Source: Bdellovibrio bacteriovorus W
GTDB taxonomy: Bacteria; Bdellovibrionota; Bdellovibrionia; Bdellovibrionales; Bdellovibrionaceae
NCBI GenBank assembly: GCA_000525675.1
Contig: CP002190.1
Location: forward strand, 2,232,001-2,296,000
Direction of reading: 5' to 3'
Length of the DNA: 64,000 nucleotides
The position numbers were made by a program, and so were the translations under genes. The notes beneath the pieces are model-generated. The model did no database searches, had not been told where the DNA came from, and was given only the letters and a program-made list of their open reading frames with translations. This document shows, piece by piece, positions 8,568-52,168 of the stretch. How positions within the stretch are numbered: the first letter of the stretch is position 1; every line of letters starts with the position of its first letter.

Positions 8568-9409
8568 TTCACGAGGCAATAATTCACCAGCCTGATCTGC
8601 GTCTCGATCGGCTATGTAAGCAAGCTAAAGTAAGCACGAGTGGATTTTACGAATGGTCTGCGAAGAAGAAAAGTTCTCAAGAAGCCATTTTCGATGAAGA
8701 GTGGGTCTGTATCCTTTTTGAAAGTAAAAAAGGTAGGATCGGTGCTCGCAGCATAAAGATGCTTTTACAGAAATATTTTTGGATCAATATGAACTTAAAG
8801 AAAGTCCGTCGTCTTATGAAAAAGCATGGACTTCGAACTGTCATCCGCAGAAAGAATAGATCTAGGCAAGTTTGGGTAGAAGGAGATGAACATAGAGCAA
8901 GCCCGAATATTCTTAATAGGAATTTTAATGTCCAAAAGAAGGATACTGTGTATTCGACAGACATTACTTATCTTGATTATGGACTTGGAAAACGAGCTTA
9001 TCTATCGGCAGTAAAGGATTTGGCAACGAAGGAGATCGTGCATTACACCGTTTCAGCAAGTGCAACTTTAAATATCGCACTTAGGGGCCTCGAAGATCTT
9101 TTTAGTCAAAAGCCCAAACATATCATTATGCACTCAGATCAAGGCAGCCACTATACTTCAAAGATCTATCGAGATTTATTAAGCAAGTGGGAAATAACTC
9201 AATCAATGTCACGTAAGGGAAATTGTTTGGACAATGCTCCGATAGAAAGTTTTTTCGGACATTTAAAAGATGAGGCAGAGCTTCGAGATTGCAATACATA
9301 TGAAGAGTTGGTAGCAGAGATAGATCGTTATATTAAATACTATAATAACGAACGACCCCAATGGGACTTAAAAGGAAAAACCCCGGCAGAGTGCCGAGGT
9401 TTTACTTAA
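8507..9409 (+). CDS. IS3-family transposase OrfB (DDE integrase domain), expressed as OrfAB
   Basis: The frame is open from 8507 with no good own start before the ATG at 8759, so it is expected to be made as an OrfAB fusion by -1 slippage. After the junction come LIHEAIIHQPDLRLDRLC and VSTSGFYEWSAKKKSS, the conserved OrfB N-terminal region. The rve-type catalytic core follows: first Asp in YSTDITYLDYG, second in IMHSDQGSHYTS, and Glu in NAPIESFFGHLKDE. The C-terminal YNNERPQWDLKGKTPAE is also typical. All three DDE residues are present. The closest subgroup by motif is IS150. The gene looks intact. Confidence 0.92.
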   Translation, partial: FPKKAPRLGGKIRKQEKFALIHEAIIHQPDLRLDRLCKQAKVSTSGFYEWSAKKKSSQEAIFDEEWVCILFESKKGRIGARSIKMLLQKYFWINMNLKKVRRLMKKHGLRTVIRRKNRSRQVWVEGDEHRASPNILNRNFNVQKKDTVYSTDITYLDYGLGKRAYLSAVKDLATKEIVHYTVSASATLNIALRGLEDLFSQKPKHIIMHSDQGSHYTSKIYRDLLSKWEITQSMSRKGNCLDNAPIESFFGHLKDEAELRDCNTYEELVAEIDRYIKYYNNERPQWDLKGKTPAECRGFT

Positions 9410-9533: not shown

Positions 9534-10697
9534 CTAAGTTTTCTTAAGAGCTTCAAAGAGATCTGGATCATCTGCGGGAATATCATGAAATGCGAAGGTT
9601 AAGAATTCACTCTGCGAGTCTCTGCGCATCTCATTGGGAAATAGCGCTAAGGTAAACTGCTTAAACTCCGCAGCTATCGTAGGCTTTTCTCCATTAAGAC
9701 CTTTAAACAACTCCTCACAGAGATCCACCCCCGTCAAATTTTTATCAAGGTGCGAGGTAGGAACCGGTCGCGGATTTAATTCGATCACATAGACAAGTCC
9801 ATCGGACTCGTTGATAACGAAATCCAGAGAGCCAAAGCCCGTCAGTTTCAAATGTGCTGCCGTCTTGCGTGCAGCTTCTTTGATCTCATCAGAAACCACG
9901 CCTTGGCAAACACTTGAAGGCCCTGTCGGCCCAGGGTGTGTGCGGAGCTTGATCATCGGGTTTACAGCATACATCTCACCACTGACTGAACAAAAAGGAG
10001 CTAATCCAACAGGCCCCTGAACAAATCTTTGCAGAGAAACCCCATTCACATCCTCAGCCTGCATAATGAAAAGCATATTTAAAACATAACGTTTTGCTCG
10101 AGTTTTCCACTGATTTCCGTTGAACTTCGTGTAGGCCGTTTTTAATTCTTCTTCGTTTTTACAAACTGTGACACCTGACGAACCAAAACCGAAGTCGTAC
10201 TTTACAACCAGTGGATAACCAAACTCTGGAGAAATTTTTAACGCCTCTTCAAGAGTTTTTACGCGCTCATTTCGCGGAACTCGTACTCCCCACTCTTGGC
10301 ATTTTGAATTAAATAGAGATTTGCTTTGTACGACTTGATCAAACTCTTCAACAGGGATCGATGAACGAATGCTATTTGCCAATCCGCGCACTCCAAACTT
10401 CTTTAAAATGCGTGCGATGTTCTGTAACGCCACCAAGGCATTCTCGTCGCCTGGAATGATCACATCAGGCTTGATACGCCACAGAGCAAAGACAATAAGA
10501 AGATAAAGGAACTTACTCCTTGAGTAAGTGAACGTAGGATACGTCCACAGTCGATCAATAAACTTTGTTTTGGCTAGAAAACTTCTCCGCGGACAGAGAG
10601 CCGCTACTGAAAAACCAGCTCTTTTTAAAGCAGCTGGTAAACGACTGATCCCCGTCCAATCTTCTGCTAAGGCGATAATCATTGCCTTTTTATCCAC
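9534..10697 (-). CDS. ATP-grasp ligase-like protein
   Basis: This is a 387-residue ATP-grasp enzyme. An N-terminal Rossmann-like domain (MIIALAEDWTGISRLPAAL, then PDVIIPGDENALVAL) precedes the ATP-grasp domain. That domain has the lysine-bearing strand GYPLVVKYDFGFGSSGVTVC, and FGSLDFVINESDGLVYVIELNPRPVPTSHL, which carries the metal-binding E-x-NPR signature. The family forms acyl-phosphate intermediates to join a carboxylate to an amine or thiol. Here, beside a flippase, it could add an amino acid or similar group to the polysaccharide; that is inference. GTG at 10697 is chosen because GAGAGG stands six bases upstream. It overlaps the flippase stop by 8 bases. Confidence 0.85.
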   Translation of the reverse strand: MDKKAMIIALAEDWTGISRLPAALKRAGFSVAALCPRRSFLAKTKFIDRLWTYPTFTYSRSKFLYLLIVFALWRIKPDVIIPGDENALVALQNIARILKKFGVRGLANSIRSSIPVEEFDQVVQSKSLFNSKCQEWGVRVPRNERVKTLEEALKISPEFGYPLVVKYDFGFGSSGVTVCKNEEELKTAYTKFNGNQWKTRAKRYVLNMLFIMQAEDVNGVSLQRFVQGPVGLAPFCSVSGEMYAVNPMIKLRTHPGPTGPSSVCQGVVSDEIKEAARKTAAHLKLTGFGSLDFVINESDGLVYVIELNPRPVPTSHLDKNLTGVDLCEELFKGLNGEKPTIAAEFKQFTLALFPNEMRRDSQSEFLTFAFHDIPADDPDLFEALKKT

Positions 10698-12231
10698 GCA
10701 AAACCTCTCGGCCTAATAAGCGCGCTACACGATTTCGTAGCCCCTTTAGTTTTTCTACTAAAAAGGCATACTCCTCTTCGTTAATAAGTTTAGTTCGAAC
10801 TGCAAACACAAATAAAGTAACAAAATATAAAGAAAAACTCGCTGCTAAAATCCAAAATGGATGCCATGTAAGATTCGAGAATCCGAGCCTTACCGAAAGG
10901 CTTAAAATGACTGATAAAATCACCGTCAAACCAATATCTCTCCACAAGAAGAGCTGATAGACGCGACTTTTAAAAAACTTTGCGCCAATAACGAGGCCCG
11001 ATATGTTTACAAGCCCTGTGGCGACCACCTTGCCCCAGAGAACAGCCATTGGCCCTCCCCAGTAGGCTCCAGCAAAAATCAAGGATAGCCCTAATAGCGC
11101 CCCGCCAATTCGCAACTTCAATGCCGCCCCAGAATGAGACGTTGAACGGAATAAAGGCTCTGGATTTAAACTCGCAAACAGGATGTATAAATTGAAAATC
11201 GTGAAATAGGGAACACTCTCTAAATACTTATCCGAAAAAATAAAGACGATCAGTTCTTTAGAAAAGAACATCATATAGATCGTAAAGGGAATCACGATCA
11301 GCAAAAGCTTTTTAGTCATCTTCTGCCAAACTTCGACGGCCCCCTTAAAGTTCTTGTTCTTCACCTGATCAATCAATTCAATATTGGCCACTTCGTATAA
11401 CGAAATTCGCGCAGAATTAATCAACGGGTTCTCAAAACATCCTACAGAATAATAAGTAAACTGCGTGATATTAAAAAATGAAGATATGAAAAGGTTCTCC
11501 ATGTTCATGATATTTTGAACAATGCGAGAAATTCCCAAAGGTAACCCGTAACGAGCCTGAGTCATAAACAATGGCCATGAGTCTCTATAGCGAATACCTG
11601 CACTGACTTTATGAGAGTGCATGATAGCTAACATCCATAACCAACGTAAGACCATCAATCCAATTAAGAAAAACAACGCGATTAAAAGAGAATCAAAGAA
11701 CCAAAATGCCGCCATTATAGCAAGGGCCTTCAGAAGTTCAGTCCCCGCATCCAAATAAAGCCGCGTGCGGAAGCGATCCAGATTAATTAAAAAACCCTCT
11801 AGCTGTACAGAGCACTGAGTGAAAATTATCAAAACTCCAAGCCACGGAAGATACTGTGCTAAATCTGGATTATTTAAAAGTTGTGCGATGCCTTCTCTAA
11901 AGACTCCAAGAACCAGCGCCACCAAGCCGGTGGTCAGCAAATTGAAAATTAATGAGTTAAGGCTATAGAGAGGAAAGTTTTTGCGATCCCAACGGATGAA
12001 GTAGAAAACCGAGTCATCAAATCCTAAGTGCAGAGCCAACTGAGCAAAGCCATAAATCAACATGACCTGCTTGTAGGTTCCATAGGTTTCCACCTCTAGG
12101 TGCCTACCTAAATACATCGGGATGATAAACGAAAAGATGATCCCGAAGATCTTTGCACCTGTCAGCAAAAGAGCTCTTTGAAAAGAACTTGTTGGATTTA
12201 AAGAAGAGGTTTGTTGATTCTCCACAGACAT
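10690..12231 (-). CDS. Wzx-type polysaccharide flippase (MOP superfamily)
   Basis: This is a 513-residue integral membrane protein with about 12-14 hydrophobic helices. The start ALLLTGAKIFGIIFSFIIPMYLGRHLEVETYGTYKQVMLIYG is typical of polysaccharide biosynthesis export proteins (PF01943/PF13440 type), with a long helix pair and basic loop. It should flip the undecaprenyl-linked repeat unit across the inner membrane, linking the transferases of this locus to the periplasmic ligase/polymerase. It lies between the LRR gene (3-base gap) and the ATP-grasp gene (8-base overlap), so the three form one transcription unit. Confidence 0.88.
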   Translation of the reverse strand: MSVENQQTSSLNPTSSFQRALLLTGAKIFGIIFSFIIPMYLGRHLEVETYGTYKQVMLIYGFAQLALHLGFDDSVFYFIRWDRKNFPLYSLNSLIFNLLTTGLVALVLGVFREGIAQLLNNPDLAQYLPWLGVLIIFTQCSVQLEGFLINLDRFRTRLYLDAGTELLKALAIMAAFWFFDSLLIALFFLIGLMVLRWLWMLAIMHSHKVSAGIRYRDSWPLFMTQARYGLPLGISRIVQNIMNMENLFISSFFNITQFTYYSVGCFENPLINSARISLYEVANIELIDQVKNKNFKGAVEVWQKMTKKLLLIVIPFTIYMMFFSKELIVFIFSDKYLESVPYFTIFNLYILFASLNPEPLFRSTSHSGAALKLRIGGALLGLSLIFAGAYWGGPMAVLWGKVVATGLVNISGLVIGAKFFKSRVYQLFLWRDIGLTVILSVILSLSVRLGFSNLTWHPFWILAASFSLYFVTLFVFAVRTKLINEEEYAFLVEKLKGLRNRVARLLGREVLRG

Positions 12232-12234
12232 TAT

Positions 12235-13134
12235 CTACGGCGTGATCCGCACTCCTCCAATATGGACCTCAGACTTTAAGCCCGCACGCTTGCGCGAGAT
12301 TTCATTCAAAGGATTTGCGTGAAACTCAAGTCGTTCTAAAGACTCTGTCCCTTGAAAGGAAGCGTCTTGCACTTCTTCAATGGCATTGGCATCTAAAGTT
12401 AAAGTTCTGAGCGAAGATAAATTTGAAAACCAACCTGCGCGAATTTCTTGAAGTCGATTATTGCGCAAATTTATATTCACAATATTTGTTTGGGAAAAAG
12501 CGGCAGATTCCATTTCTTCCACTCTATTATCTTCCAGATCCACCGTCCTTAAGGATTCTAAGTTTTGCAATCTGTCTCTCTGAATTTTACGGATATGGTT
12601 TTTTCTTAGGTTCAATGATCGCAGAGATTCCGTTCCCGATAACTGCGGCAATGTATTTAGTAAATTGGCCTCTAAGTTCAACTCAACTAACTGAAGAAGG
12701 TGCGGGACCCCGTGAACTTCGCTCAATTGATTGTAAGATAGATCCAATGCCTGCAAGGAAACGAGGTTCTTAAATGCGGAGCCCTCGATTTTTGAAAGTT
12801 TATTGCGATCAAGCTTTAAGACGAGCAGACTCTCAAGCCCATCGAATGCCTTTTCTTCAAGAGTTTCAATGGAATTTGAATCTAGGAACAAGCTCTTCAA
12901 AGAGCTCAATCCTCTAAAACTACCATTTTGCAATCTCGGAAGCGCTTTATTCACGACAACCAAATACTCAAGCCTTGCCATAGCGGTCTTTGAAACCTGC
13001 GAGCAGTCATTCGCAGAGACAGCTTTGGCGATTTCCGTGCCGATCACGCCGCGATCACAGATATTGATGCTGTCGCCAGCAAGAGCCCTTGTTGCAGCCA
13101 GAAAGAATGAAAAATAGATCAGAGCCAATTTCAT
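12235..13134 (-). CDS. Secreted leucine-rich-repeat protein
   Basis: This is a 299-residue protein with a signal peptide (MKLALIYFSFFLAATRALA, cleavage before GDS) and about nine LRR units of 22-24 residues. Examples are SLKSLFLDSNSIETLEEKAF, SLLVLKLDRNKLSKIEGSAF and SLRTLTLDANAIEEVQDASF. The two N-terminal cysteines (CDRG and DCSQ) look like an LRR-cap. LRR solenoids bind proteins or glycans; the target is unknown. Start 13134 is preferred over a frame extending to 13242 because it begins the signal peptide and has AAAGG eight bases upstream. It is the first gene of the flippase/ATP-grasp unit, an unusual partner for polysaccharide export genes. Confidence 0.87.
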   Translation of the reverse strand: MKLALIYFSFFLAATRALAGDSINICDRGVIGTEIAKAVSANDCSQVSKTAMARLEYLVVVNKALPRLQNGSFRGLSSLKSLFLDSNSIETLEEKAFDGLESLLVLKLDRNKLSKIEGSAFKNLVSLQALDLSYNQLSEVHGVPHLLQLVELNLEANLLNTLPQLSGTESLRSLNLRKNHIRKIQRDRLQNLESLRTVDLEDNRVEEMESAAFSQTNIVNINLRNNRLQEIRAGWFSNLSSLRTLTLDANAIEEVQDASFQGTESLERLEFHANPLNEISRKRAGLKSEVHIGGVRITP

Positions 13135-13363
13135 GGTTAAACCTTTGATTTTGCGACGATAATGCCACAGTCGATCACTTTCACCTAAAGCATTCAAAAT
13201 CCCTTGAAAAAACAACACGCTCTGACTGATTCCCATCCACAAGTGCCTAGATTGTCACCGCAACGAACAGTAAGTGGATTATTTACACCCCTTAAAGCGC
13301 ACTCTTTGATTTAAACCCAATCCCGCTTAATATCTGCCTCCAGTTATTCATAACGGAGTGTCT

Positions 13364-14221
13364 ATGAAGCGAATTTCAATTTTAGCAAGTTTGGTGCTAT
13401 TCCCCATCTTGGTGAACGCAAACCAGTTGCAAAGTATTTCGACGCCTCTGCCGACCTCTACTTTTGATGGCAATGTCAGCTATTTTGGTTATGTCTCTGC
13501 TGAAGTGAAAGACGTTCAATCTAAGAACCCAGGCCTCTACTCCTACCATCTCTTAGCTTTTAACTATAACTACTCGCCCCGCTATACTTGGAGTCTGCGC
13601 CCGACTTTCACCTACGAAAGCGAAGGCACGCGCTGGGGGGATAAGCTCCCTGCCCGCCTTAGAATGGCAGATTCTAATATAACTCTGATCGATCAAAAGC
13701 CTCTCAGCCTTCCAGACACTTGGGGCTCTAAACTTAACTATAAGCTTTTCTTGCCCACCGATCCTGAATGGCAAAAGGCTGGCACTGTCGCCGGCTTCGG
13801 CATTAATTTTGAAATATATAAAGATCTACCGAACGCATTCAGCATTGGCTACTACCCGAAGGGCTTTGTTTTGCTAAACACCCAAGAACGCTACCTAACA
13901 GACTATGATGGGTATGATGTCATTAAGCCAACTCAATTAGCGCAAATCGAGCAATGGGTTCGCCTCACTAAATACTTCGGGGACCGTTTAAGCTTATCTC
14001 AAGGCGCTGGTTATAAGACTTATATCTTTAATGCGAGCACAAACCAACAACGCGCTCAAACCAACCATGCCCTCTTAGAATCGACGATAAATCTTTCTGT
14101 GAACAATAACGTAGATATCTCTGTGGGCATTGCTCAAGAACATATTTCTCATGAACGCTCTTGGCAGCCTTACCACGACGAGGAATCGACATACATCTTC
14201 ATGACCTCGATCCGCATCTAA
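13364..14221 (+). CDS. Secreted or outer-membrane protein, probable beta-barrel
   Basis: This protein of 285 residues starts with a signal peptide (MKRISILASLVLFPILVNA, cleavage before NQLQ). The rest has no hydrophobic helices but many alternating aromatic/polar strands such as YSYHLLAFNYNYSPRYTWSL and IDQKPLSLPDTWGSKLNYKL, as expected for a small outer-membrane barrel. The last strand is TYIFMTSIRI, which lacks the usual terminal aromatic residue, so barrel membership is not certain. GGAG lies five bases before ATG 13364; a GTG two codons upstream is less good. It stands just before the glycosidase genes and may be an envelope partner of them. I do not recognise the family. Confidence 0.7.
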   Translation: MKRISILASLVLFPILVNANQLQSISTPLPTSTFDGNVSYFGYVSAEVKDVQSKNPGLYSYHLLAFNYNYSPRYTWSLRPTFTYESEGTRWGDKLPARLRMADSNITLIDQKPLSLPDTWGSKLNYKLFLPTDPEWQKAGTVAGFGINFEIYKDLPNAFSIGYYPKGFVLLNTQERYLTDYDGYDVIKPTQLAQIEQWVRLTKYFGDRLSLSQGAGYKTYIFNASTNQQRAQTNHALLESTINLSVNNNVDISVGIAQEHISHERSWQPYHDEESTYIFMTSIRI

Positions 14222-14421: not shown

Positions 14422-16089
14422 GTGAAAAATATCCGCGCGTTTCAGTTCGGTTCATTAGTTAGCATTTTTTTTTCAGTAACTACTGCGTGCAGCGCTGGCG
14501 TGACTAAAAAAAATGAAGCTATGGACACCCACACGAATAATAGTATTCAAGCTCAGGTGGTCGTAGATCTGAATAAAAAAGGTCCTGTCATTGATAGCTC
14601 TTTTTATGGCTCTCACTTTGATTCTTTTGCTCCATTTCCAAATAGCAATCTTGTTAAAGAATTAGGAATTAGCCACCTTCGCATAGGTGGGAATGAATAC
14701 GACGTCTTCAATCCAAACTTGAACATGGCTTACACGAAGACTGGTATCTATAATATCGCTGGTTTTTCTAGCGTCGAAACTTGGCTTCGCAATAATAATC
14801 TTAAGGGTATCTACCAAATCAACCTCCACGGCTACCAACCAGTTCTTGAAGGCAACAGCGTTCTTCTTAAAAACTCTTTCACAGCTCATAATGCTTACGA
14901 GATGATCAAGAGACTCAATGGTCAACTTGGCTTAGGAATCGTGAATTTCAGTCTTGGCAACGAGCCTGAACAATGGCATGAAACTCATCCTCATACAGGT
15001 GCCTTTAGTGAAGAAAGCGGCATCAGCGCCGATGAGTACATCCAAAAATATATCGACTTTGCTTTGGCAATCCGCAAAGCCCAAGAAGAAGTTAATGGAA
15101 ATCCTAATAGCATCAAAATTTGGGGTCCTGAGATTTCTTCATCATGGCTTGATTGGAACACTGGTAACTTCAACCAAGACTGTAACTGGCACCCCACGAT
15201 CCGTGGTCAGGTTGAATGCTCATACGGCAACGGTCAGTTCACGCATTTCATCCCTTATTTCTTACATCGTCTTACAAAAGCCGAAAACGATCGCACGATC
15301 AACCCACGTGGCTATAAGCTTTTAGACTACTTTGCATTCCACTATTACCCTAACTTCAGAACAGATATTAACGATATCAACTCTATTGTTAAAAACGACA
15401 AAGGTGTCCAGCACGTAGCAAAAATTCTTGAAAGCACTCGCGTTCTTAATGATCCAAGCTTTAAGAACACAGTAGATGTGAGTTCTTATAGAGATGTTGC
15501 CCCAAATATCATCGGTCGTATGAAGGGTTGGTTAAAGTCTTACTATCCTAATGCTAAACTTGCGATCAATGAGTTTGCTGTGGATTCTGATTGGAGATCA
15601 ACTACTTACCACCCAATCATCCGTCCTCTTTATTTAGCGGACACTCTAGGTATTGCTGCTAAAGAAGGCGTTTCTTTTTTCAACAACTTCATCCTGAGCA
15701 ACTCTGAGGGTTCTCGTATTCCATGGACGCTGATCGAAGGTGGAAACTCAAAGAGCGATCTTTATAATATGTATTCGCTATTCACTCAGCATTTCAAAGG
15801 AACAATCCTTGCGGTTGAGGACAATCAAGGTGACATAGTGAATGGCTACGCTGTTGATCAAGGTAAATTTATCGCTCTTGTTCTTGTAAACAAAAGCCCA
15901 ACAGATAAGTCCATTCAAGTCTTCTTAAAAGAAGGATCGGCTAAAAAAGTTGCAACTTACAAAATGCCAGGTTGGTCTGCGTCTATTTTGAAAATCGAAA
16001 AAAACACGTGGTTTAAAAGAGACTACGAAGTTTACAGATTTGGCGCTGAAGAAATGGGCATTACAAAAGACAGTAATTATTTGAAATAA
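14422..16089 (+). CDS. GH44-like glycoside hydrolase, secreted
   Basis: This is a 555-residue protein with an N-terminal export signal ending near TTACSAG. The cysteine at about residue 23 could be lipidated, but the lipobox is poor. The (beta/alpha)8 domain shows FSLGNEPEQWHETHP with acid/base candidate Glu181, and LAINEFAVDSDW with nucleophile candidate Glu384. The NEP...THP pattern matches GH44 endoglucanase/xyloglucanase active sites; the nucleophile motif differs (NEF rather than EYN), so GH44-like is safer. A C-terminal beta-domain ends FGAEEMGIT. GTG start with GAGG six bases before it. A paralogue sits two genes on with the same active-site spacing. It probably trims or releases beta-glucan or the locus's own polysaccharide. 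Confidence 0.82.
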   Translation: MKNIRAFQFGSLVSIFFSVTTACSAGVTKKNEAMDTHTNNSIQAQVVVDLNKKGPVIDSSFYGSHFDSFAPFPNSNLVKELGISHLRIGGNEYDVFNPNLNMAYTKTGIYNIAGFSSVETWLRNNNLKGIYQINLHGYQPVLEGNSVLLKNSFTAHNAYEMIKRLNGQLGLGIVNFSLGNEPEQWHETHPHTGAFSEESGISADEYIQKYIDFALAIRKAQEEVNGNPNSIKIWGPEISSSWLDWNTGNFNQDCNWHPTIRGQVECSYGNGQFTHFIPYFLHRLTKAENDRTINPRGYKLLDYFAFHYYPNFRTDINDINSIVKNDKGVQHVAKILESTRVLNDPSFKNTVDVSSYRDVAPNIIGRMKGWLKSYYPNAKLAINEFAVDSDWRSTTYHPIIRPLYLADTLGIAAKEGVSFFNNFILSNSEGSRIPWTLIEGGNSKSDLYNMYSLFTQHFKGTILAVEDNQGDIVNGYAVDQGKFIALVLVNKSPTDKSIQVFLKEGSAKKVATYKMPGWSASILKIEKNTWFKRDYEVYRFGAEEMGITKDSNYLK

Positions 16090-16170: not shown

Positions 16171-17826
16171 ATGAAGAACGTATTAAGACTTCTAGTTGCA
16201 TTCAGCATGATGGGATCTATACCCGCTTATGCAAATGACAATGTTTCTTTTGGATATGGTTGGGCCTTGAACTACGACTGGCTAGATCAAGTCGTTAATT
16301 TGACACCAGCTCCAGTTGGCAACTGCCCGACCTTGAATGTAGACGTATACAGAGATGGATACAAAATCGCTCTTGAGCGTAGCTTCTACGCAAGCATCAC
16401 GCCTGCTATCTCTTATTGGTTCCCTCGTGACGAAGTTTGGACTGCGATTGCTGTAGGTCCTATGAAGAATAACTTCGGTGTTACATTCAGCACGATCAAA
16501 AACATGAATGAGCTAGAAGCTGAAAAAGCTAAGAAGTTACCGGTTACAGGTACTGAGCTTAGCCGTTGGAAAGTGAAAGACTCAGCTTATTGGGAGTCTC
16601 AAGGTGGCGTGGCGTTCTATCTTGGCGTAGGTAAAGAAGCTGTGGGATTAAGCATCTACGCTGTTGCTTCTGGTGTTTGGGCTAACTACCTTGAAAAAAC
16701 AGGTCCAAATACAGTTTACGTTGAAAGACAAAAAAAAGACGTTAAGACAATCGCTTATGGCGGTGGTGTTATGCGTTTAATGCTGACTACTGAACAAGCC
16801 TTCGAAAAAGCTAATGGCTTAACTTATGAGTTCACTCTAAAAAATTCTGCAGCAACAAATGCTTTCGAGCGTTTCATGGCTGGTGATGCAACTAAAGCTC
16901 TTGAGCTATCAACAATTGAAAACTCAGGCGTTACAAAAATCTCTAATACAAGCGGTAGCCGTATCGGCCGCACTTTCGGTGCTACTTTAGCGACTCCGTT
17001 TATTCCAGTTATTTCTTTCAAAGGTTCTACTGGTAAAGACGCCAACATCGAAGAAGAAGTAACTATTTGGGACGAACAAATTGTTAAAAATTACGGTGTT
17101 TACAAAAAAGAAAGCAGCAGCCGTCTTGTAAGTGCACATCGTAAAAAAGCGACATCTTTCAAAGGTGGCGTAACAACGATGGAAGTTGGCCAAGGCGCTA
17201 ACAAAAAATATACTGAAAAATTCTATGGTAACTTTAAGCACGCTTTCCAAGCTGATTGGGGTCAGGAAAACATGCTTCGTGCAGAAATCAACCACGTTAC
17301 AGATATCTCTGGTCTTAAAGCAGAACCTGAAATGTGTGTGAAGGTACCAAAACTTCAAAAAACTCTTGGCTACAACCAAACTCTTCTTCATGTAAATTAC
17401 TCTGATGAGTACATGAGAGAAATCTTTGGCTATGGATATAGCTCTGATCGTCTTTTGAAAGAAATTGAAGACCAAGCTAAACGTATCGACTACAATGCTC
17501 GCCTAGCAGAAGGTTGCGATCTTTATGAAAACAACCAATCGAATTCAGCGGTTTGTAGATCAAACTCAGTACACTCTGCTTTCTCAACTATCCGTAAGAG
17601 CATTGCGCAAGTTCGTAAATCTTATGGCAGTGACAACAATGCATTTGCCTTCGGAATGGCTAACTTCGGAAAAGCTATCTGGTCGAATCCTTCTGTTTTC
17701 AAAGCCTTCTTTGAAAAAGGTAAAGAATGCGGTATCGAGCTAGAGTTTGAAGTTTCTGGACAGAGACTCAGCCGATTCAACAAATCTAAAAAATATTCTT
17801 ACACGAATGCATGCCCTCGCAGATAA
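16171..17826 (+). CDS. Secreted protein of unknown family sharing a domain with the collagen-like protein
   Basis: This protein has 551 residues and a signal peptide MKNVLRLLVAFSMMGSIPAYA. It has no recognised domain. Stretches resemble the C-terminal half of the collagen-like protein at 47116-50466 in the same order: GVAFYLGVGKEAVGLSIYA / GVIFSAGAGLGPIGAGVAR, then GVWANYLEKTGPNTVYVER / GTWETYVEKVSSDKVYVKM, then AFERFMAGD / AYEDLIRGN, and near the end DNNAFAFGMANFGKAIW / DSKAFATAYGEFGEGMA. The body looks beta-rich with a helical C-terminal part and a few cysteines. It lies between two GH44-like genes, which suggests a surface or periplasmic partner in glycan processing. AAGGTAGG before ATG 16171 decides the start. 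Confidence 0.8.
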   Translation: MKNVLRLLVAFSMMGSIPAYANDNVSFGYGWALNYDWLDQVVNLTPAPVGNCPTLNVDVYRDGYKIALERSFYASITPAISYWFPRDEVWTAIAVGPMKNNFGVTFSTIKNMNELEAEKAKKLPVTGTELSRWKVKDSAYWESQGGVAFYLGVGKEAVGLSIYAVASGVWANYLEKTGPNTVYVERQKKDVKTIAYGGGVMRLMLTTEQAFEKANGLTYEFTLKNSAATNAFERFMAGDATKALELSTIENSGVTKISNTSGSRIGRTFGATLATPFIPVISFKGSTGKDANIEEEVTIWDEQIVKNYGVYKKESSSRLVSAHRKKATSFKGGVTTMEVGQGANKKYTEKFYGNFKHAFQADWGQENMLRAEINHVTDISGLKAEPEMCVKVPKLQKTLGYNQTLLHVNYSDEYMREIFGYGYSSDRLLKEIEDQAKRIDYNARLAEGCDLYENNQSNSAVCRSNSVHSAFSTIRKSIAQVRKSYGSDNNAFAFGMANFGKAIWSNPSVFKAFFEKGKECGIELEFEVSGQRLSRFNKSKKYSYTNACPRR

Positions 17827-17878: not shown

Positions 17879-19489
17879 GTGAAAACATCTCTAGCTTTAA
17901 TATTAACAGTTTGCTGTTTATCAAACGTGACTTATGCGAGCGTTTCGACATTCAACATTCCTTACAATGCGAAGCTCAACAAAGCCGTTGAAGGCACTGT
18001 TGTTATCGATCTAGCAAGTGATTCAAAAGTAAATGTTCAAAAAAACTTTTACGGTGCTGATACAAATGGATTCAGCGTTCTTCCGAAACCTACACATGTG
18101 AACCCTCTGAACCTTGAATGGGTTAAATTCGGTGGAAACTATCACTCAGTTTATAACTGGGATTTGAATCTATATCTTCAAGATCAAAAGGGTATCGTAC
18201 CAGTTTACTCTCCTCTTGCAGATCGCATCCAGTACGTGCAAAACGCTTATAAAGCGACACCGCTTTTCCAAGTAAATATGCTTGGAATGCAACCTGATCA
18301 CTCTCAGGAAGGTTTTATCCGCATGAGAAACACTGCGGATGAAAAACACGCAGCGAACGCGATCAAGTTCATCAACGGCCAGAAAAAATTAGGCCTTCAG
18401 CACATCTTGATGGGCAATGAACCTTTCCACCAAGAGGAAACTCATGGTGTTGCAAACCCTTCTGCTGATGAGTATATCGAGAAGTATATCCGTTATGCGG
18501 TAGCTTTGCGTGAAGCTCAAGAATCTATCAGCGGCAATCCAAATGATATTAAACTTTGGGGCCCAGAAATCGCAACTGGATGGACTTTGTGGCAAACAAA
18601 TCATCCACGTGATTGCAACGTTGATTGGAATATTCCATCTGGTATGGATTGTTCTTATGGAAACGGACAGTTCAAAGAGTTCATTCCATACTTCCTTTCA
18701 AAAATTGCTGAGTTTGAAAAAGACGGCCAACGCAATCCTCGCGGTTACAAAATGCTTGATTACTTGTCATGGCACTACTACCCACTTTTCCGCTCTGAAT
18801 TTAGCGACAACGCTAGCTTCATCATGAAGGATGGAAAACAAAACGTAGAAGGCATGCTAGAGTCAGTAAATCTTTGGACACAATTGAACTATATCAACAA
18901 GTATGACTGGGCTTCTCCTCGTGGTATGAACCCAAAAATCGTTGATCGTTATACTCAGTGGAGAAACAAATACTACCCTTCAGCAAAACTTGCTGTAACT
19001 GAGTTTGGTATCGATTCTGTTCCAAACATTGAATACCACCCAATTGTTCGCCCTCTTTACTTGGCGGATCTAATGGCTCGTATTGCTGATGCTGGAGTGA
19101 ATGTATTCTTCAACTCGTTCCTACAAGGCAGCTTTAAAAACGACCCATGGGGCATGATAAACAACGAACAAAGAACACGCTTATATTTCGTGTACTCTCT
19201 GTTCTCGAATAACTACCTTGGTAAAGTTTTGCTTACGAATGATAACTTCGGAGATAAAGTAAATACTTACTCTGTAAAAACAGCGACTGGAACAAATGTT
19301 ATTCTTGTGAATAAAGACAAAGTTGCGAAAACAACAGCAGTTCAGTTAACTCAAGGATCTTCACGCACCCAAGCTCTTGAGATATCTCTACCAGCTTGGT
19401 CTGCGACTGTTCTTTCGATCCCTAATAACAAGGGCCCAATCAAAGCTCAACAATATGGAGCTAAAGAAATGGGCATCCCTGTTCAATAA
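17879..19489 (+). CDS. GH44-like glycoside hydrolase, secreted (paralogue)
   Basis: This is a 536-residue secreted paralogue of the 14422 gene, with signal peptide MKTSLALILTVCCLSNVTYA. The catalytic Glu candidates are Glu181 in LMGNEPFHQEETHG and Glu375 in LAVTEFGIDSVPN. Both enzymes share PSADEYIEKYIRYAVALREAQ-like and CSYGNGQF...FIPYF blocks and a C-terminal tail FGAEEMGI/YGAKEMGI. Two copies suggest cuts at different positions of one polymer. GTG start with AAGG seven bases before. Only 7 bases separate it from the converging GH5 gene and no terminator is visible between them. Confidence 0.82.
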   Translation: MKTSLALILTVCCLSNVTYASVSTFNIPYNAKLNKAVEGTVVIDLASDSKVNVQKNFYGADTNGFSVLPKPTHVNPLNLEWVKFGGNYHSVYNWDLNLYLQDQKGIVPVYSPLADRIQYVQNAYKATPLFQVNMLGMQPDHSQEGFIRMRNTADEKHAANAIKFINGQKKLGLQHILMGNEPFHQEETHGVANPSADEYIEKYIRYAVALREAQESISGNPNDIKLWGPEIATGWTLWQTNHPRDCNVDWNIPSGMDCSYGNGQFKEFIPYFLSKIAEFEKDGQRNPRGYKMLDYLSWHYYPLFRSEFSDNASFIMKDGKQNVEGMLESVNLWTQLNYINKYDWASPRGMNPKIVDRYTQWRNKYYPSAKLAVTEFGIDSVPNIEYHPIVRPLYLADLMARIADAGVNVFFNSFLQGSFKNDPWGMINNEQRTRLYFVYSLFSNNYLGKVLLTNDNFGDKVNTYSVKTATGTNVILVNKDKVAKTTAVQLTQGSSRTQALEISLPAWSATVLSIPNNKGPIKAQQYGAKEMGIPVQ

Positions 19490-19496
19490 TTACACT

Positions 19497-20855
19497 TTAT
19501 TTGGCGAGTAGATCTCTAACAAACTCGCCCATTCCACCAGGGCCCGTTCGTAGTGACCAATCTGAGTTAAACATACGCGGGCCCCAATTGATATCAAAGC
19601 ACCAAGCAGTCCAACTTAAACCTCTAGAGCGCATCCACGCCTCAATGTTTGTACCATAAGTGATATTACCACCCTCTGTACCACCAGCTTCAAAGCCCCA
19701 CTCTGAAATAAACAGAGGGTACTTATCCGCGACAGCTCCATAACGCATTTCCCATGTATCCACCGATTGGTTGGAATAGATATGCGCTACATAAACTACG
19801 TTATTTCCTTTTACAGGATTCCCAGCGGCACCAGAAATATGTGATGACCAATACGGACCACCTACTAGAATCAAGTTATTAGGAGCTAATTTACGAATTA
19901 GATCCGTAATAGGCTGAGCAATCGTATTCTTCCAAGTAGCCCAATTATCTGGATAGATTGGCTCATTGAAAATCTCATATAGAACATATGGATTCGCCGC
20001 AAACTTCGGAGCCATGAACTTCCAGAAGGCAGCTACTTTATCGTAAAGCCCATCGTAGTTGCTGATGTAGTGAAGATCGATAATCACATAAATACCTTTT
20101 GCCGTAAGTTCTTTCACGACGGGCTCGATGTGATTTTTAAAGTACTTCTCACCACCATTTGTCGCACTGAAGAAGCCCTCTTGTGGATAAGCTGGATCTC
20201 CAGGAAGGATTGGCAGTCTTACAACCTTTGCATTGTATTTATCTGTAGCAAGGCTAGCTACGCTTCTTGCCGTTACACCTGGTCGTTCCCAAGGCTTCGT
20301 ATTTAAATGCTCAGGGTCCGCAATGCTAACGCCTTTAAGAATCACCTGCTGGCCATTTGAATTTAAAATCTTATTACCAACAACTTGGAGCCAACCCGTT
20401 GGAGATGGCCCCGGGGCTGGTTCCGGCTCTGGAGTTGGCGGCGGAGTTACAACCATTGAATAACCTTCACCCACCATAGCCACTGTCACCTCTTCCCAAT
20501 CCCACTTCTTCCCCAGAAAATACCCCAGAGTAAAAGAAGTACCGATGCTGCCCGACCTTGTCGGAGTGAACTGAATTTGCACGGTACAAGTTTTACCCGC
20601 ATTAAGCTTCCACTCGTTAAAGGCACATGTTCCCGCTGTTTTCTTGAACTCATAGGGTCCTGTGAACCAGAAGCTATCTAAGCGAATCATATCCTTAGAA
20701 GTGTTTTTCAATGTGAGTGTGCTTGTCGCTGTTTTTCCTAAAGTCACTTTTCCAAAATTGAGCTCTCCAGAAAGACTTGCTGACAATGCATTTGCCTCAA
20801 GAGCTCCCGTTACCATGAGCGATACAATTACGAACCGTAAAACAAGATTCTTCAT
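19497..20855 (-). CDS. GH5 endoglucanase with N-terminal ASH-like domain
   Basis: This is a 452-residue secreted enzyme in three parts. Residues 1-24 are a signal peptide. Residues 25-135 form an ASH/MSP-type immunoglobulin-like domain (LNFGKVTLGKTATSTLTLKN, CTVQIQFTPTRSG). Residues 138-155 are a proline-rich linker (TPPPTPEPEPAPGPSP). The GH5 (beta/alpha)8 domain follows with IDLHY, acid/base Glu298 in YEIFNEPIY, HIYSNQ, and nucleophile Glu385 in FISEWGFEAGG. It should hydrolyse beta-1,4-glucan or a similar beta-linked polymer outside the cell. The ASH domain is unusual on a cellulase and may anchor it. It converges on the GH44-like pair, so three glycanases sit beside the polysaccharide locus. 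Confidence 0.9.
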   Translation of the reverse strand: MKNLVLRFVIVSLMVTGALEANALSASLSGELNFGKVTLGKTATSTLTLKNTSKDMIRLDSFWFTGPYEFKKTAGTCAFNEWKLNAGKTCTVQIQFTPTRSGSIGTSFTLGYFLGKKWDWEEVTVAMVGEGYSMVVTPPPTPEPEPAPGPSPTGWLQVVGNKILNSNGQQVILKGVSIADPEHLNTKPWERPGVTARSVASLATDKYNAKVVRLPILPGDPAYPQEGFFSATNGGEKYFKNHIEPVVKELTAKGIYVIIDLHYISNYDGLYDKVAAFWKFMAPKFAANPYVLYEIFNEPIYPDNWATWKNTIAQPITDLIRKLAPNNLILVGGPYWSSHISGAAGNPVKGNNVVYVAHIYSNQSVDTWEMRYGAVADKYPLFISEWGFEAGGTEGGNITYGTNIEAWMRSRGLSWTAWCFDINWGPRMFNSDWSLRTGPGGMGEFVRDLLAK

Positions 20856-34808: not shown

Positions 34809-34847
34809 CGTCTCCATATTCTCTCTCACATGGAGACGCTATTTTTT
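34809..34847 (+). terminator. Rho-independent terminator
   Basis: CGTCTCCAT (34809-34817), 12-base loop, ATGGAGACG (34830-34838), then CTATTTTTT. It ends the 59-residue gene's transcript; the stop of the converging giant gene is inside its tail. Confidence 0.8.
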
Positions 34848-47115: not shown

Positions 47116-50100
47116 TTAGAAAGACACCGGAGTCATGAGAGGAAGTTTACCCATGTCATGATTTGTTAAAATCATACCACGAACTTTTGAATGTCTTGTT
47201 GCTGGATGGAATGGAGCACCTTTGTACTTAGGTTGAGTTAAGATAGGTTTCCATCTTCCTTTAGAGTCAATAACCCACTCACGGAAGTACATTGAAAGTT
47301 TCGTACCTTCAATGAGGTAGTCGATTCCAACGCCTTCACCTGCAAGGCTCATTGCAAGTCTGAACGTAAATACGTTTTCAGCCATGCCTTCACCAAACTC
47401 TCCATAAGCTGTAGCAAATGCTTTTGAATCAGCTTTCATGTAACGATGCATATTGCGTAATGCACTATACATTTTTGCTGCCGCTTTTTCAGTCTTATTT
47501 GTGATAAAGCTTGGGCATGCAGTTGATTCATCAGATACACAATAGCTCAATGGATCGCTGTAAGTGCTGAAGTAACTTTGCAGTTGAGAAGTTGCGCGGC
47601 GTACAAAGTCTTTTTCAGACATTGATTGAGCAGCCTTCATCAATCTTAAAGTATTCGCCTCACTGAAGTTCACGTTAAACTCGATACCTGTGTAGCCAAG
47701 ATCGCTGTTTGATGGAATATTAACCATCAGAGTATCCAAACCTGTTTTCTTAACAAGTTCTGCGATACCTTTTTGCAGCTTAGATGAACTACTCTTCTCG
47801 TGTTTGAACGTATAACTGTAAGTTCCAAAGATTCCATCCATCTTAGCTTTAGATTCCCAGTTCTCAACAGTGTACTTTGCTCCGTAGAACATGAAGTCTT
47901 TTTCTTTATGTTTGAACCAGAATCTTGAGTCTTCAGACGTTGAATAAATTCCGTAATGAACTTTCGCAGTGTTTTTATCTAAGTGTAAGTCAGAAGTCGT
48001 GAATGAATTTACGCGACCTTTGCTGTACTTCTTATCCCAGATAATTGGAAGTGCCAACGAACGGCTAGCCACTTTACCTGAAGAAACACTTGTGAATGTT
48101 TCAACTTTAAGAACTGGTGGTCTCTCGACCATATTACGTGGACGAGACTTCACTAAATTCTCAGAAGCTAAAACGTTCCCGCGGATTAAGTCCTCATATG
48201 CCTTGCGTCCAACCTCAGTTGAAATATCGTAAACAAATGAGAATCCATCATCCGAATATCTAAATTCATTAAGTGCAAGGTTCAAGATTGATACATTCGT
48301 AAACATCGCAAAGTTGCTCAACTTACCCTTAGTCATTTTCACATAGACTTTATCTGAGCTTACTTTCTCTACATATGTTTCCCATGTACCAGTTGCTAAA
48401 CGAGCAACACCAGCACCAATTGGTCCAAGACCTGCGCCTGCAGAGAAGATGACTCCCCCATTACCCATATAAGTAATGCTATCGCCATTGTCCCACTTAG
48501 TAAGGTCTGAAGCATACTGAGGCACACTCCAGCGTCCACCCATTGCAAGTGCTTTATCGTAAGTACTTACAAAGCGAACTGACTCAGTATCTCTACCAAC
48601 TGTTGGTAGAACTCCAACATGCCCCCAGAAGTGAGGTAGCACACCTGTCGCATTGTCGAACCAGAATTTAACTTGAGCACCTAGGCCCACTTGTAAGTTT
48701 CCATAAACTGTTTTCTGGAAACCACTACGATAATCCCCGTACTTCAGTGTATCTGAAGAAGCTAGTGGCTTAGTGCCATACTCAGTCAGATTGTAGCTGT
48801 ACTTAGGAAGATTATTAAAGTGCGGCGTTAAGTTTACGATATAGTTACCGTAATCAAAACTTAGCAAGAATAACGGCTTAAGTTTTGCGCGAAGAACATT
48901 CTTGTCTTCCTCTTGGAAACCATTTGTTCCATTCGTACCGTTTGTCGCATTGGTTCCATTAGTGCCGCTTGTACCGTTTGTACCACTTGTTCCGTTAGTA
49001 CCTTCAGTTCCATTCGTACCATTTGTTCCACTTGTTCCGTCATTACCGTTAGTTCCACTGGTTCCATGAGTACCACTTGTACCGTGTGTACCCTTAGTGC
49101 CGTGAGTACCATGGGTACCGTTTGAACCATGAGTTCCCTCATTGCCACGTGTACCGTGAGTACCATTCGAACCATGAGTTCCCTCATTGCCGCGTGTACC
49201 GTGAGTACCGTTTGAACCATGAGTTCCGTTGTTACCACGCGTACCGTGTGTACCGTTGGTACCATGTGTACCCTGAACACCATTGGTACCGTGTGTACCA
49301 TGGGTTCCAGCAACACCTTGAGTTCCTGCTACACCTTGAGTCCCTGCGACTCCATGCGTACCGGTTACACCCTGTGTGCCCGCTACTCCATGAGTTCCAG
49401 CAACACCATGAGTCCCGGTAACACCCGTTATACCCTGTGTGCCTGCTACGCCATGAGTTCCAGCTACGCCGTGAGTTCCTGTCACACCCGTAATACCTTG
49501 GCTGCCAGCGATACCTTGGTTACCTGCAACTCCGTTATTGCCATTGTTGCCGTTGTTACCTACTACACCTTGGTTGCCCGCGATGCCTTGGTTACCTGCA
49601 ACTCCGTTGTTACCGTTATTGCCTGCAACACCTTGGTTACCTGCGACACCCTGATTGCCAGCTATGCCGTTATTTCCGGTTACGCCCGCAACACCTTGGT
49701 TACCTGCGACACCCTGATTACCAGCTACACCGTTATTTCCAGTTACGCCTGCAACACCTTGGTTACCTGCGACACCCTGATTACCAGCTACGCCGTTATT
49801 TCCAGTTACGCCTGCAACACCTTGGTTACCTGCGACACCCTGATTACCAGCTACGCCATTATTTCCAGTTACGCCCGCAACACCTTGGTTACCTGCGACA
49901 CCCTGATTACCAGCCACGCCGTTATTCCCTGTGATGCCAACAACGCCAGACGAACCTGCGACTGCATTATTTCCAGCAACTCCGGATACTCCATTGTTCC
50001 CTGCCACACCGGAATTGCCTGCAACTCCTACGTTTCCTGCGACACCAATTCCAGATGAACCGGCAACTCCACTATTTCCCGTGGCCCCTGCCACTCCTGA

Positions 50101-50466
50101 TGCACCGACGACTGCAGATCCATTCGTCCCAATAACTGCTGACGTTGCTGCAACTCCAGCAACACCTGTGACCGAGCCAATAACTCCCCCGTTATTGCCT
50201 ACAACACCTATTGCCATTGGCTCCATACCTGCCATTTTGCAAAGAATCCACTCACCCCTCACGAGACAAGTCTTACCGTCCACATTTGTACTCTGTGCAA
50301 GGTTATAAAAACCTCCCACACCGTCAACTTCTAGGACTTTCTTGGAAGGCCCCTTTCGGAGTGTATTTGCAAAACGCTGTGTTTCTGTGGACTCATTCGC
50401 AAATGCGACACTCCCCAGAAACAAGCCTGCGACGAGGAGTGACTTCCTCGACGTATTAAAGTTCAT
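47116..50466 (-). CDS. Secreted collagen-like protein with C-terminal domain of unknown family
   Basis: This 1116-residue protein starts with a signal peptide (MNFNTSRKSLLVAGLFLGSVAFA). Residues about 25-80 form a small N-terminal domain with CLVRGEWILCKM. Residues about 83-515 are uninterrupted G-X-Y triplets, first VAGNQG/VTGNNG type, then THG/TNG/SNG type. The triplets lack proline, so stability must come from N, Q, T and charged side chains. The last 600 residues resemble the 551-residue protein at 16171 (shared GVIFSAGAGLGP, GTWETYVEKV, AFATAYGEFGEGM). It is probably a trimeric surface fibre or stalk with a globular head. AAGGAGAG before ATG. Confidence 0.88.
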   Translation of the reverse strand: MNFNTSRKSLLVAGLFLGSVAFANESTETQRFANTLRKGPSKKVLEVDGVGGFYNLAQSTNVDGKTCLVRGEWILCKMAGMEPMAIGVVGNNGGVIGSVTGVAGVAATSAVIGTNGSAVVGASGVAGATGNSGVAGSSGIGVAGNVGVAGNSGVAGNNGVSGVAGNNAVAGSSGVVGITGNNGVAGNQGVAGNQGVAGVTGNNGVAGNQGVAGNQGVAGVTGNNGVAGNQGVAGNQGVAGVTGNNGVAGNQGVAGNQGVAGVTGNNGIAGNQGVAGNQGVAGNNGNNGVAGNQGIAGNQGVVGNNGNNGNNGVAGNQGIAGSQGITGVTGTHGVAGTHGVAGTQGITGVTGTHGVAGTHGVAGTQGVTGTHGVAGTQGVAGTQGVAGTHGTHGTNGVQGTHGTNGTHGTRGNNGTHGSNGTHGTRGNEGTHGSNGTHGTRGNEGTHGSNGTHGTHGTKGTHGTSGTHGTSGTNGNDGTSGTNGTNGTEGTNGTSGTNGTSGTNGTNATNGTNGTNGFQEEDKNVLRAKLKPLFLLSFDYGNYIVNLTPHFNNLPKYSYNLTEYGTKPLASSDTLKYGDYRSGFQKTVYGNLQVGLGAQVKFWFDNATGVLPHFWGHVGVLPTVGRDTESVRFVSTYDKALAMGGRWSVPQYASDLTKWDNGDSITYMGNGGVIFSAGAGLGPIGAGVARLATGTWETYVEKVSSDKVYVKMTKGKLSNFAMFTNVSILNLALNEFRYSDDGFSFVYDISTEVGRKAYEDLIRGNVLASENLVKSRPRNMVERPPVLKVETFTSVSSGKVASRSLALPIIWDKKYSKGRVNSFTTSDLHLDKNTAKVHYGIYSTSEDSRFWFKHKEKDFMFYGAKYTVENWESKAKMDGIFGTYSYTFKHEKSSSSKLQKGIAELVKKTGLDTLMVNIPSNSDLGYTGIEFNVNFSEANTLRLMKAAQSMSEKDFVRRATSQLQSYFSTYSDPLSYCVSDESTACPSFITNKTEKAAAKMYSALRNMHRYMKADSKAFATAYGEFGEGMAENVFTFRLAMSLAGEGVGIDYLIEGTKLSMYFREWVIDSKGRWKPILTQPKYKGAPFHPATRHSKVRGMILTNHDMGKLPLMTPVSF
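49625..49939. repeat. 63-base minisatellite in the collagen-like gene
   Basis: Five copies in exact register (start points 49625, 49688, 49751, 49814, 49877), nearly identical, each encoding 21 residues (seven triplets, GVTGNNGVAGNQ...). Copies one to five differ by a few bases. Recombination could change the stalk length in steps of 21 residues without a frameshift. Confidence 0.92.
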
Positions 50467-50775: not shown

Positions 50776-51432
50776 TTGAAGAAAAATAAACGGAAGTTTA
50801 TTCCAAAGCTTTCTATAGATAAGAATGATTTACTCAAAGCCTGGAGGATTACTCAGAAGACTGCAATTTGCATTTTCATCGGAGTGAATCTCGCCATCAT
50901 GTATATTGATGGGTTACCTGACAAAACACCATTGGGTAAAAATTTTACCGATCTTCCGATCGTTGCAAGATATCAAGCTTTCGCGATGATCTACCAGCCT
51001 TGGTCCATGTTTGCCCCAAATCCAATGAACTCTAATGCTTTCCTTCAAGCTGAGGTTCTATTTAAAGATGGTTCAAAAAGAATTTGGGATTTCCCTCGTC
51101 AAAATCTGATGAGTGGTGCACGACGTGTTTTAGTCGGTGATCGCTATCGCCTCTACGGTCAAGAAAGCTTAAAGCCAGGAAGTGTCGAACTCATGTGGCA
51201 AGATGTTTCAAAATATATCACGCGACAAGTTCTAATAGATGAAGAAGCGCAAAGTACGTTTCGAGAAGTTGAAAAAATCACTTTCTTCAGATTCTCTAAT
51301 ACAATCACACCTCCTCCAGCGGCTCCCTTTATTCCGCACGGTCAACTTAGCCAAAACTACCAAATTGACCCCGTATTCTATTACATCCCAACAGTAAGCC
51401 AGGTGAACTATGACTATAAAAACAACAATTAA
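50776..51432 (+). CDS. Membrane-anchored protein of an HTTM module
   Basis: This is a 218-residue protein with one membrane segment (about residues 28-46) near the N-terminus and a mostly soluble rest. The stretch YQPWSMFAPNPMNSNAFLQ is a W-x-MFAP motif seen in proteins encoded beside HTTM (gamma-carboxylase-like) genes. TTG start supported by GAGGGGG seven bases upstream. The stop lies 23 bases inside the HTTM gene, so the two are translationally coupled. Function unknown; a partner of the HTTM membrane protein is inferred from order. Confidence 0.75.
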   Translation: MKKNKRKFIPKLSIDKNDLLKAWRITQKTAICIFIGVNLAIMYIDGLPDKTPLGKNFTDLPIVARYQAFAMIYQPWSMFAPNPMNSNAFLQAEVLFKDGSKRIWDFPRQNLMSGARRVLVGDRYRLYGQESLKPGSVELMWQDVSKYITRQVLIDEEAQSTFREVEKITFFRFSNTITPPPAAPFIPHGQLSQNYQIDPVFYYIPTVSQVNYDYKNNN

Positions 51433-52168
51433 ATCTGTCGACGATTTCTTCTTCAAACCTCAGCCGGTCTATAACGTCGCACTAATGCGCATAGGAATGG
51501 GCTTCCTTCTAATATTTAATTGGCTGATGATTGTATGGGACCTAGAAGCTCTGTATGGCCCTCAAGGAATTCTTTCTTTCGAAACCTCTCGACTCTACGG
51601 TAATCATCTTCGGTTTTCTTTATTTGATTTTCTTGCACCGACCTACGAAAGCGTCATTGCGATGGCAATATTAAATCTAGTGGCCGTCTTAGCAATGACC
51701 GTGGGCTATAGAACACGACTGTCCACAATTATAGCTTTCTTAACGGTGGTTTCTTTTCACCATCGCAATGGAATGATTTTGAATAGTGCTGACTCCGTTT
51801 TAAGAATCTTTCTTTTCCTTTCCATCTTTACTCCGTCAGGAGAGGCCTTCTCTATCGACAGATGGCTGAAACTAAAAAAAGGAGAGGTCACAAATGAACC
51901 GGCCATGCGCAGTCCATGGGCACTTCGCCTTATTCAAATTCAATTCTGCGTAATCTATATCGCCACTGTGTTGTTTAAAATCAAAGGAACTCAATGGGTT
52001 GATGGAACTGCCGTTTACGTTGCTACTCGTTTAGATGAGTTCTTTCGCTATCCACTTCCGGTCTTAAACAATATGTTTCTTATTAAACTGGCAACTTGGT
52101 CCACACTCATCATAGAGTTCGCTCTGGGAACCCTCGTGTGGTTTAAAGACCTTCGTTATTGGTATTAG
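51410..52168 (+). CDS. HTTM-domain membrane protein, N-terminal part (frameshifted)
   Basis: This is a 252-residue protein with about six membrane segments. It matches the HTTM domain (horizontally transferred transmembrane; related to vitamin K-dependent gamma-carboxylase): ALMRIGMGFLLIFNW, LYGPQGILSF, TVVSFHHRNGMILNSADSVLRIFLFL, IYIATVLFKIKGTQWVDGTA. The frame ends at TAG 52168 after FKDLRYWY. The next frame continues the family without gap (LVLASGILFHLGIEYVMSIP). A 1-base deletion, a sequencing error or -1 slippage is needed; no canonical slippery heptamer was found. The full protein would have about 315 residues. Confidence 0.8.
   Translation: MTIKTTIKSVDDFFFKPQPVYNVALMRIGMGFLLIFNWLMIVWDLEALYGPQGILSFETSRLYGNHLRFSLFDFLAPTYESVIAMAILNLVAVLAMTVGYRTRLSTIIAFLTVVSFHHRNGMILNSADSVLRIFLFLSIFTPSGEAFSIDRWLKLKKGEVTNEPAMRSPWALRLIQIQFCVIYIATVLFKIKGTQWVDGTAVYVATRLDEFFRYPLPVLNNMFLIKLATWSTLIIEFALGTLVWFKDLRYWY

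Follow-up and report, generated by a model that had tools for sequence, protein, structure and literature searches.

Classical (type Va) autotransporters such as NalP and EspP consist of a signal peptide, a variable and repeat-rich N-terminal part and a 12-strand barrel, whereas trimeric autotransporters are held by a short 4-strand YadA anchor. Outer-membrane systems with collagen-like repeats include Bucl8 of Burkholderia, with TolC-type OEP domains followed by a collagen part for which triple-helix formation has been demonstrated (PMC7682875), and the VtaA proteins, trimeric autotransporters with collagen-like repeats (PMC6755704). EpsX, the OPX/beta-barrel translocon of Myxococcus exopolysaccharide (EPS), has 18 strands and is coupled to a short OPX protein (PMC9601211). 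The MAT fibres of Bdellovibrio bacteriovorus HD100 begin with a conserved beta-rich domain of ~130 aa, end in adhesin or S74 domains and form trimeric beta-prisms (PMC10769870).

The window analyzed here, a stretch of 64,000 nucleotides from Bdellovibrio bacteriovorus W, encodes two proteins that are, on the evidence of their sequences, members of one unnamed Bdellovibrionota family: P0001 (16171..17826, + strand, ATG at 16171, 551 aa) and P0002 (47116..50466, − strand, 1116 aa). Both carry a putative signal peptide, a predicted 12-strand barrel and a C-terminal alpha/beta domain, with a collagen-like stalk in front of the barrel in P0002 and no stalk in P0001. In the account that we consider probable, the ~530 shared residues form an outer-membrane barrel with its C-terminal domain, which would act as a stalk anchor in P0002 and most relatives and as a bare component of a polysaccharide pathway in P0001.

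Comparison with described systems

P0002 shares with the classical autotransporters the order of signal peptide, variable repeat-rich part and 12-strand barrel (structure match Z 11–12). The family differs from them in that 25 members gave no match to the Autotransporter domain (PF03797) at E ≤ 0.1, in that ~180 residues with an invariant Cys pair follow the barrel, which in autotransporters lies at the extreme C-terminus, and in that bare barrels exist in the Bdellovibrionota family. In outline the family would work like an autotransporter, but it departs from one in two defining features, the PF03797 match and the C-terminal position of the barrel. It differs from the trimeric autotransporters by having no YadA_anchor Pfam match and 12 strands in a single chain.

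The long Gly-X-Y tract that characterizes prokaryotic collagen-like proteins is found in P0002 but is not a feature of the family, as many relatives have few such triplets or none. Bucl8 and VtaA resemble P0002 as outer-membrane proteins associated with collagen-like repeats; however, the Pfam domain of neither was found in the family and their barrels are different. The MAT fibres of these predators are long, modular proteins of the cell surface, as P0002 would be. Compared with their published description, the family has its constant part in the C-terminal barrel and its variable part at the N-terminus. In P0002 the region ahead of the repeats measures ~80 residues.

EpsX and P0001 are alike in that a Wzx/Wzy EPS cluster encodes an outer-membrane barrel (a predicted one in the case of P0001), and a GH44 gene of the present cluster resembles EpsB below the cut-off. 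The strand numbers differ (18 in EpsX, 12 predicted long strands in P0001). An EpsX-type barrel has an OPX gene within five genes, and Poly_export/OPX (PF02563) had no match in the source genome (G000) or in two genomes with P0001 orthologues (G017 and G080), while positive controls were detected. P0001 is not an EpsX-type barrel. Finally, genes next to the stalked barrels share the HTTM domain family (PF05090) with SdpAB of Bacillus subtilis and the vitamin K-dependent carboxylase; their SdpB match lies far below its cut-off, and the likeness stands at the level of the domain family.

Kinship, extent and stalks of the family

P0001 aligned with the last ~600 aa of P0002 in a single colinear BLASTP match (92 bits, E = 2e-23, 21% identity, 546 columns), and as a query on the whole genome it matched only itself and P0002 (E = 8.9e-23). 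Profiles built from four P0001-type and nine P0002-type sequences matched each other with a probability of 99.92% (E = 4.7e-35, 492 columns), whereas control profiles (reversed and five column-shuffled) reached 0.04–0.36%. Judged by these comparisons, the resemblance between P0001 and the C-terminal part of P0002 is homology. The initial annotation had delimited the same two reading frames and had noted four blocks occurring in the same order (GVxFxxGxG, GxWxxYxEKxxxxxVYV, A(F/Y)Exx(M/I)xG and (N/K)AFAxxxxxFG); in a 25-sequence alignment these blocks sit on conserved or invariant columns (G145, G146, G154, G168, Y173, E175, K176, V184, G238, F499 and G500). It had named an insignificant profile–profile score as grounds against the kinship, and no such score was obtained. 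Its statement that the shared part contains no known domain also holds for Pfam, NCBIfam, PHROGs and PDB sequences, where only sub-threshold chance matches were found.

A profile search identified the family in 83 out of 291 Bdellovibrionota genomes and 36 out of 163 genera; an earlier search of 60 relatives had found the domain in 25 genomes, and one genome (G006) holds two members. A pattern scan of GTDB genome contigs returned seven loci, all in Bdellovibrionota-type records, with a pattern so narrow that absence of the family outside the Bdellovibrionota is not established. In a scan of IMG/VR, none of 132 pattern matches was confirmed. Five larger secreted proteins of 600–905 aa (L088, L089, L090, L091 and L092) match the family only over its strand plus helix-pair segment and possibly belong to a wider superfamily. 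A literature search found no paper on Bdellovibrio collagen-like proteins.

The region between signal peptide and barrel is variable throughout the family. The collagen-like stalk that the initial annotation had described in P0002 is strict Gly-X-Y, with 112 uninterrupted triplets at residues 171–506 (48949..49956, − strand; Pfam Collagen 1.4e-55). At the textbook rise of the collagen triple helix, 2.86 Å per residue, these 336 residues would span ~96 nm. The orthologues of P0002 carry between 3 and 65 consecutive Gly-X-Y triplets, or else Ser/Gly, Asp/His/Thr/Gly or Thr-rich repeats, and collagen was rejected as a family-defining feature on these grounds. More distant members have Pro-rich, Pro/Thr, Asn/Gly, Asn-Gly-Asn-Ser or pentapeptide stalks or no stalk, so that stalks from none to ~1200 aa and of many compositions occur on conserved barrels. 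Bare and stalked forms are intermixed on the tree, on which the stalk label changes at least eight times (a few labels are doubtful, e.g., that of the truncated L007). As the stalks vary while the barrels stay conserved, what is constant in this architecture is the barrel and what is exchanged is the stalk, the opposite of a collagen stalk that carries a new head.

Two loci (L079:9300-14444 and L080:6420-10625) encode stalks of ~900–1200 aa built from NxGxxNxG pentapeptide repeats (Pfam Pentapeptide_2 1.3e-140 in L079), which resemble those of mycobacterial MPTR proteins. Another locus carries tandem stalked barrels (L034:4037-6859 and L034:7116-9704) with Ser/Gly stalks of different length, apparently a recent duplication.

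Gene neighborhoods of the bare and stalked members

P0001 is encoded in an exopolysaccharide cluster. The genes before it encode three glycosyltransferases (390-1574, 1553-2704 and 4685-5869, − strand), a Wzy-like polymerase (2701-3939, −), a weakly matching GNVR/co-polymerase (3939-4688, −), a GT4 glycosyltransferase (6062-7153, +), an XrtA-system polysaccharide deacetylase over the NCBIfam cut-off (7131-8060, +), an ATP-grasp protein (9534-10697, −), a Wzx-like flippase (10690-12231, −), a leucine-rich repeat protein (12235-13242, −) and a 287-aa protein without a family match (13358..14221, +), by eye a possible second barrel, which is kept in the clusters of G017 and of a metagenome-assembled genome locus (L031). 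The position beside glycosidases reported in the initial annotation is correct: the gene order is GH44 (the EpsB-like gene, 14422..16089, +, adjoining P0001), P0001, a second GH44-type glycosidase (17879..19489, +) and a GH5 cellulase-type protein (19497..20855, −). Inside the cluster, HTH_Tnp and an rve integrase form an insertion-sequence-like pair (8163-9409), and the genes that flank this pair are directly adjacent in G017 (L068). Elsewhere in the window, 34839-43499 encodes a cyclic beta-glucan synthase-type enzyme of 2886 aa that contains GH94 and glucoamylase-like domains.

The exopolysaccharide block is largely kept in G017, in L031 and in G080, which belongs to another family. Orthologues of P0001 with at least 45% identity were found in 4 out of 291 genomes (G000, G017, G223 and G080), the same four that contain the closest GH44 homologues; the orthologue lies between two GH44 genes in three of them and beside them in the fourth. 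The conserved cluster context, together with the lack of a detected OPX gene, makes P0001 a candidate outer-membrane component of the exopolysaccharide pathway, and by guilt by association the bare barrel may serve this Wzx/Wzy-type pathway by export or by anchoring. The stronger claim that there is no OPX-like protein at all was rejected, as a short SLBB protein is encoded ~290 kb away in the genome. A short secreted SLBB-domain protein that adjoins a Wzy-like gene (L125, G017:C1 near 3150169) is possibly a minimal OPX-type protein undetected by PF02563.

P0002 lies in a different setting. It is adjoined by a gene for an SdpA-like/DUF5819-like protein (50776..51432, +), whose relatives match DUF5819 weakly, and this is followed by a gene for an HTTM-domain (SdpB/VKGC-like) membrane protein (51410..52168, +). 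These two genes, an AidB-like gene and ManC are conserved neighbors of P0002 in Bdellovibrio. The HTTM frame of the window ends early compared with its relatives and the remainder continues in another frame just downstream, which indicates that a frameshift (or a sequencing error) has interrupted the gene. This copy had no Pfam match at 1e-3; among its relatives PF05090 scored above the cut-off of 27.7 (60.2 bits in L112, 63.4 bits in L082).

When the genes around 38 barrel loci were clustered, a single partner recurred, the HTTM-domain membrane protein, which was present in nine loci. Across the 291 genomes an HTTM gene lies within 2.6 kb of at least 25 out of 77 barrels, in eight genera and two families, compared with a roughly estimated expectation of ~0.5; 15 of the 25 cases represent a single orthologous position within one genus. 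No barrel of the bare P0001 type is among the HTTM-linked ones listed. Parts that neighbor the HTTM domain or are fused to it match DUF5819 weakly or a DCC1-like thiol oxidoreductase. A literature search found no paper on HTTM with SdpB/DUF5819, and few substrates are known for the bacterial members of the HTTM family. The association suggests that the HTTM proteins form a candidate maturation module for the stalked barrels. A Glu-rich segment before the barrel was considered as its target and rejected, since HTTM-linked and other stalked members showed no clear difference by eye. A more far-reaching proposal, which we regard as tentative and rather doubtful, is that stalked barrels and the adjacent HTTM, SdpA-like (DUF5819) and DCC-thiol-oxidoreductase genes make up a surface-display system of predatory bacteria that has not been described before, in which the membrane module would modify or mature the secreted protein (by disulfide formation or in a carboxylase-like manner) and the barrel, autotransporter-like but of a separate lineage, would display an interchangeable stalk.

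The alternative that fares best is that P0001 and P0002 share ancestry without sharing a function, the barrel being a general scaffold such as a porin and stalk and gene context being incidental. The mixture of bare and stalked forms on the tree and the unrelated neighborhoods of the two proteins agree with such a history, but incidental context would hardly place P0001 with GH44 genes in four out of four genomes or HTTM genes beside stalked barrels in eight genera, and we consider it unlikely.

The predicted barrel and the placement of the stalk

Signal-like N-termini were recognized by eye in P0001 (MKNVLRLLVAFSMMGSIPAYA; 16171..16233, +), in P0002 (MNFNTSRKSLLVAGLFLGSVAFA; 50398..50466, −) and in most relatives. 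AlphaFold2 models, each based on an alignment of only nine sequences, were obtained for P0001 (pLDDT 71.9, pTM 0.68) and for the shared part of P0002 (pLDDT 78.1, pTM 0.78), two members with 22% identity. Both models show 12 up-and-down strands of 16–21 residues each; the smaller part that follows them is made up of several helices and three short strands and contains the invariant Cys pair. The long strands occupy residues 25–364 of P0001 (16243..17262, +) and 525–892 of P0002 (47791..48894, −), ending at residue 364 of 551 and at residue 378 of the 602-residue P0002 part, and the smaller domain occupies residues 366–541 (17266..17793, +; family-invariant Cys449 and Cys462) and 894–1066 (47269..47787, −). 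The strand count of the predicted barrel is uncertain, 12 or, with the short strands, 14.

In VIA-align comparisons CymA matched the P0001 model with Z 15.0 (rmsd 4.8, 238 aligned) and the P0002 model with Z 14.0 (rmsd 5.2, 257 aligned), followed by OmpG (Z 12–13), NalP (Z 12.1, rmsd 4.1, 202 aligned) and EspP (Z 11–12). Foldseek returned weak matches for both models (TM-scores 0.1–0.2), nearly all of them outer-membrane barrels, with soluble lipid-binding sheets (ApoB) also listed; as these TM-scores are low despite VIA Z-scores of 12–15, the models may show a distorted barrel. A home-made strand scale, which approximates published barrel statistics and separates the sets only partly, gave a score per 100 aa of 2.42 for the barrel part of 61 members. 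Ten E. coli outer-membrane proteins scored 2.87 ± 0.57, secreted soluble proteins 1.36 ± 0.95 and shuffled sequences 1.88, and the C-terminal part of the same members reached 1.52. Since nearly all structural neighbors are outer-membrane beta-barrels, a membrane anchor is the most likely role of the shared part, and we consider it very probable that it forms an outer-membrane barrel. The initial annotation had expected a shared fold without known homologues; at the fold level the models resemble known 12–14-strand outer-membrane barrels. It had also seen a secreted domain at the head of the collagen-like stalk, a placement that the two models and the strand-composition test do not support, as they point to the anchor and not the tip.

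Most of the even turns are short, and the longest loops come after odd strands. Strands 1–5 have their more hydrophobic ends toward the even-turn side. Strands 10 and 11 carry charges on the side presumed to be periplasmic and fit poorly. A test of the even against the odd side did not reach significance and the even-odd amphipathicity by itself gave a weak signal (z 1.9), so that the topology is only suggested. In the models this pattern suggests that both barrel termini are periplasmic, and the C-terminal alpha/beta domain is probably periplasmic and closed by a disulfide. If the short turns are periplasmic the N-terminus starts in the periplasm, and display of a stalk would require threading through the pore. 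The 12 long strands would insert into the outer membrane, the N-terminal repeat part of stalked members would be threaded out and displayed at the cell surface in an autotransporter-like manner, and the C-terminal domain would remain in the periplasm. Surface display is proposed because of the length of the stalk (if it forms a triple helix), its variability and the architecture of the proteins.

The one-sided short turns, which would place both barrel ends and with them the C-terminal domain in the periplasm, would also fit a barrel whose stalk stays there as a peptidoglycan tether or spacer. A triple helix of the length estimated for P0002 far exceeds the depth of the periplasm, however, the variability in length and composition is usual for surface-exposed stalks and no known peptidoglycan-binding motif was seen, which makes a periplasmic stalk improbable. 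Marginally less probable still is a large soluble beta-rich domain, secreted or extracellular, as a stalk head or free-standing: half of the strands are charge-rich and ApoB-like sheets are among the Foldseek matches, but nearly all top structure matches of two distant members, and the strand score of the barrel part, are those of outer-membrane proteins.

If the shared part is an outer-membrane anchor, predatory bacteria would possess a widespread outer-membrane family that has gone unannotated; the surface proteins of such bacteria are among the factors that decide which prey they can handle. The exchangeable stalks represent a natural experiment in stalk evolution, the recurrent HTTM neighborhood would give a membrane enzyme family a substrate that can be tested, and in clusters without a recognizable OPX gene P0001 provides a candidate for the outer-membrane component of the exopolysaccharide pathway.
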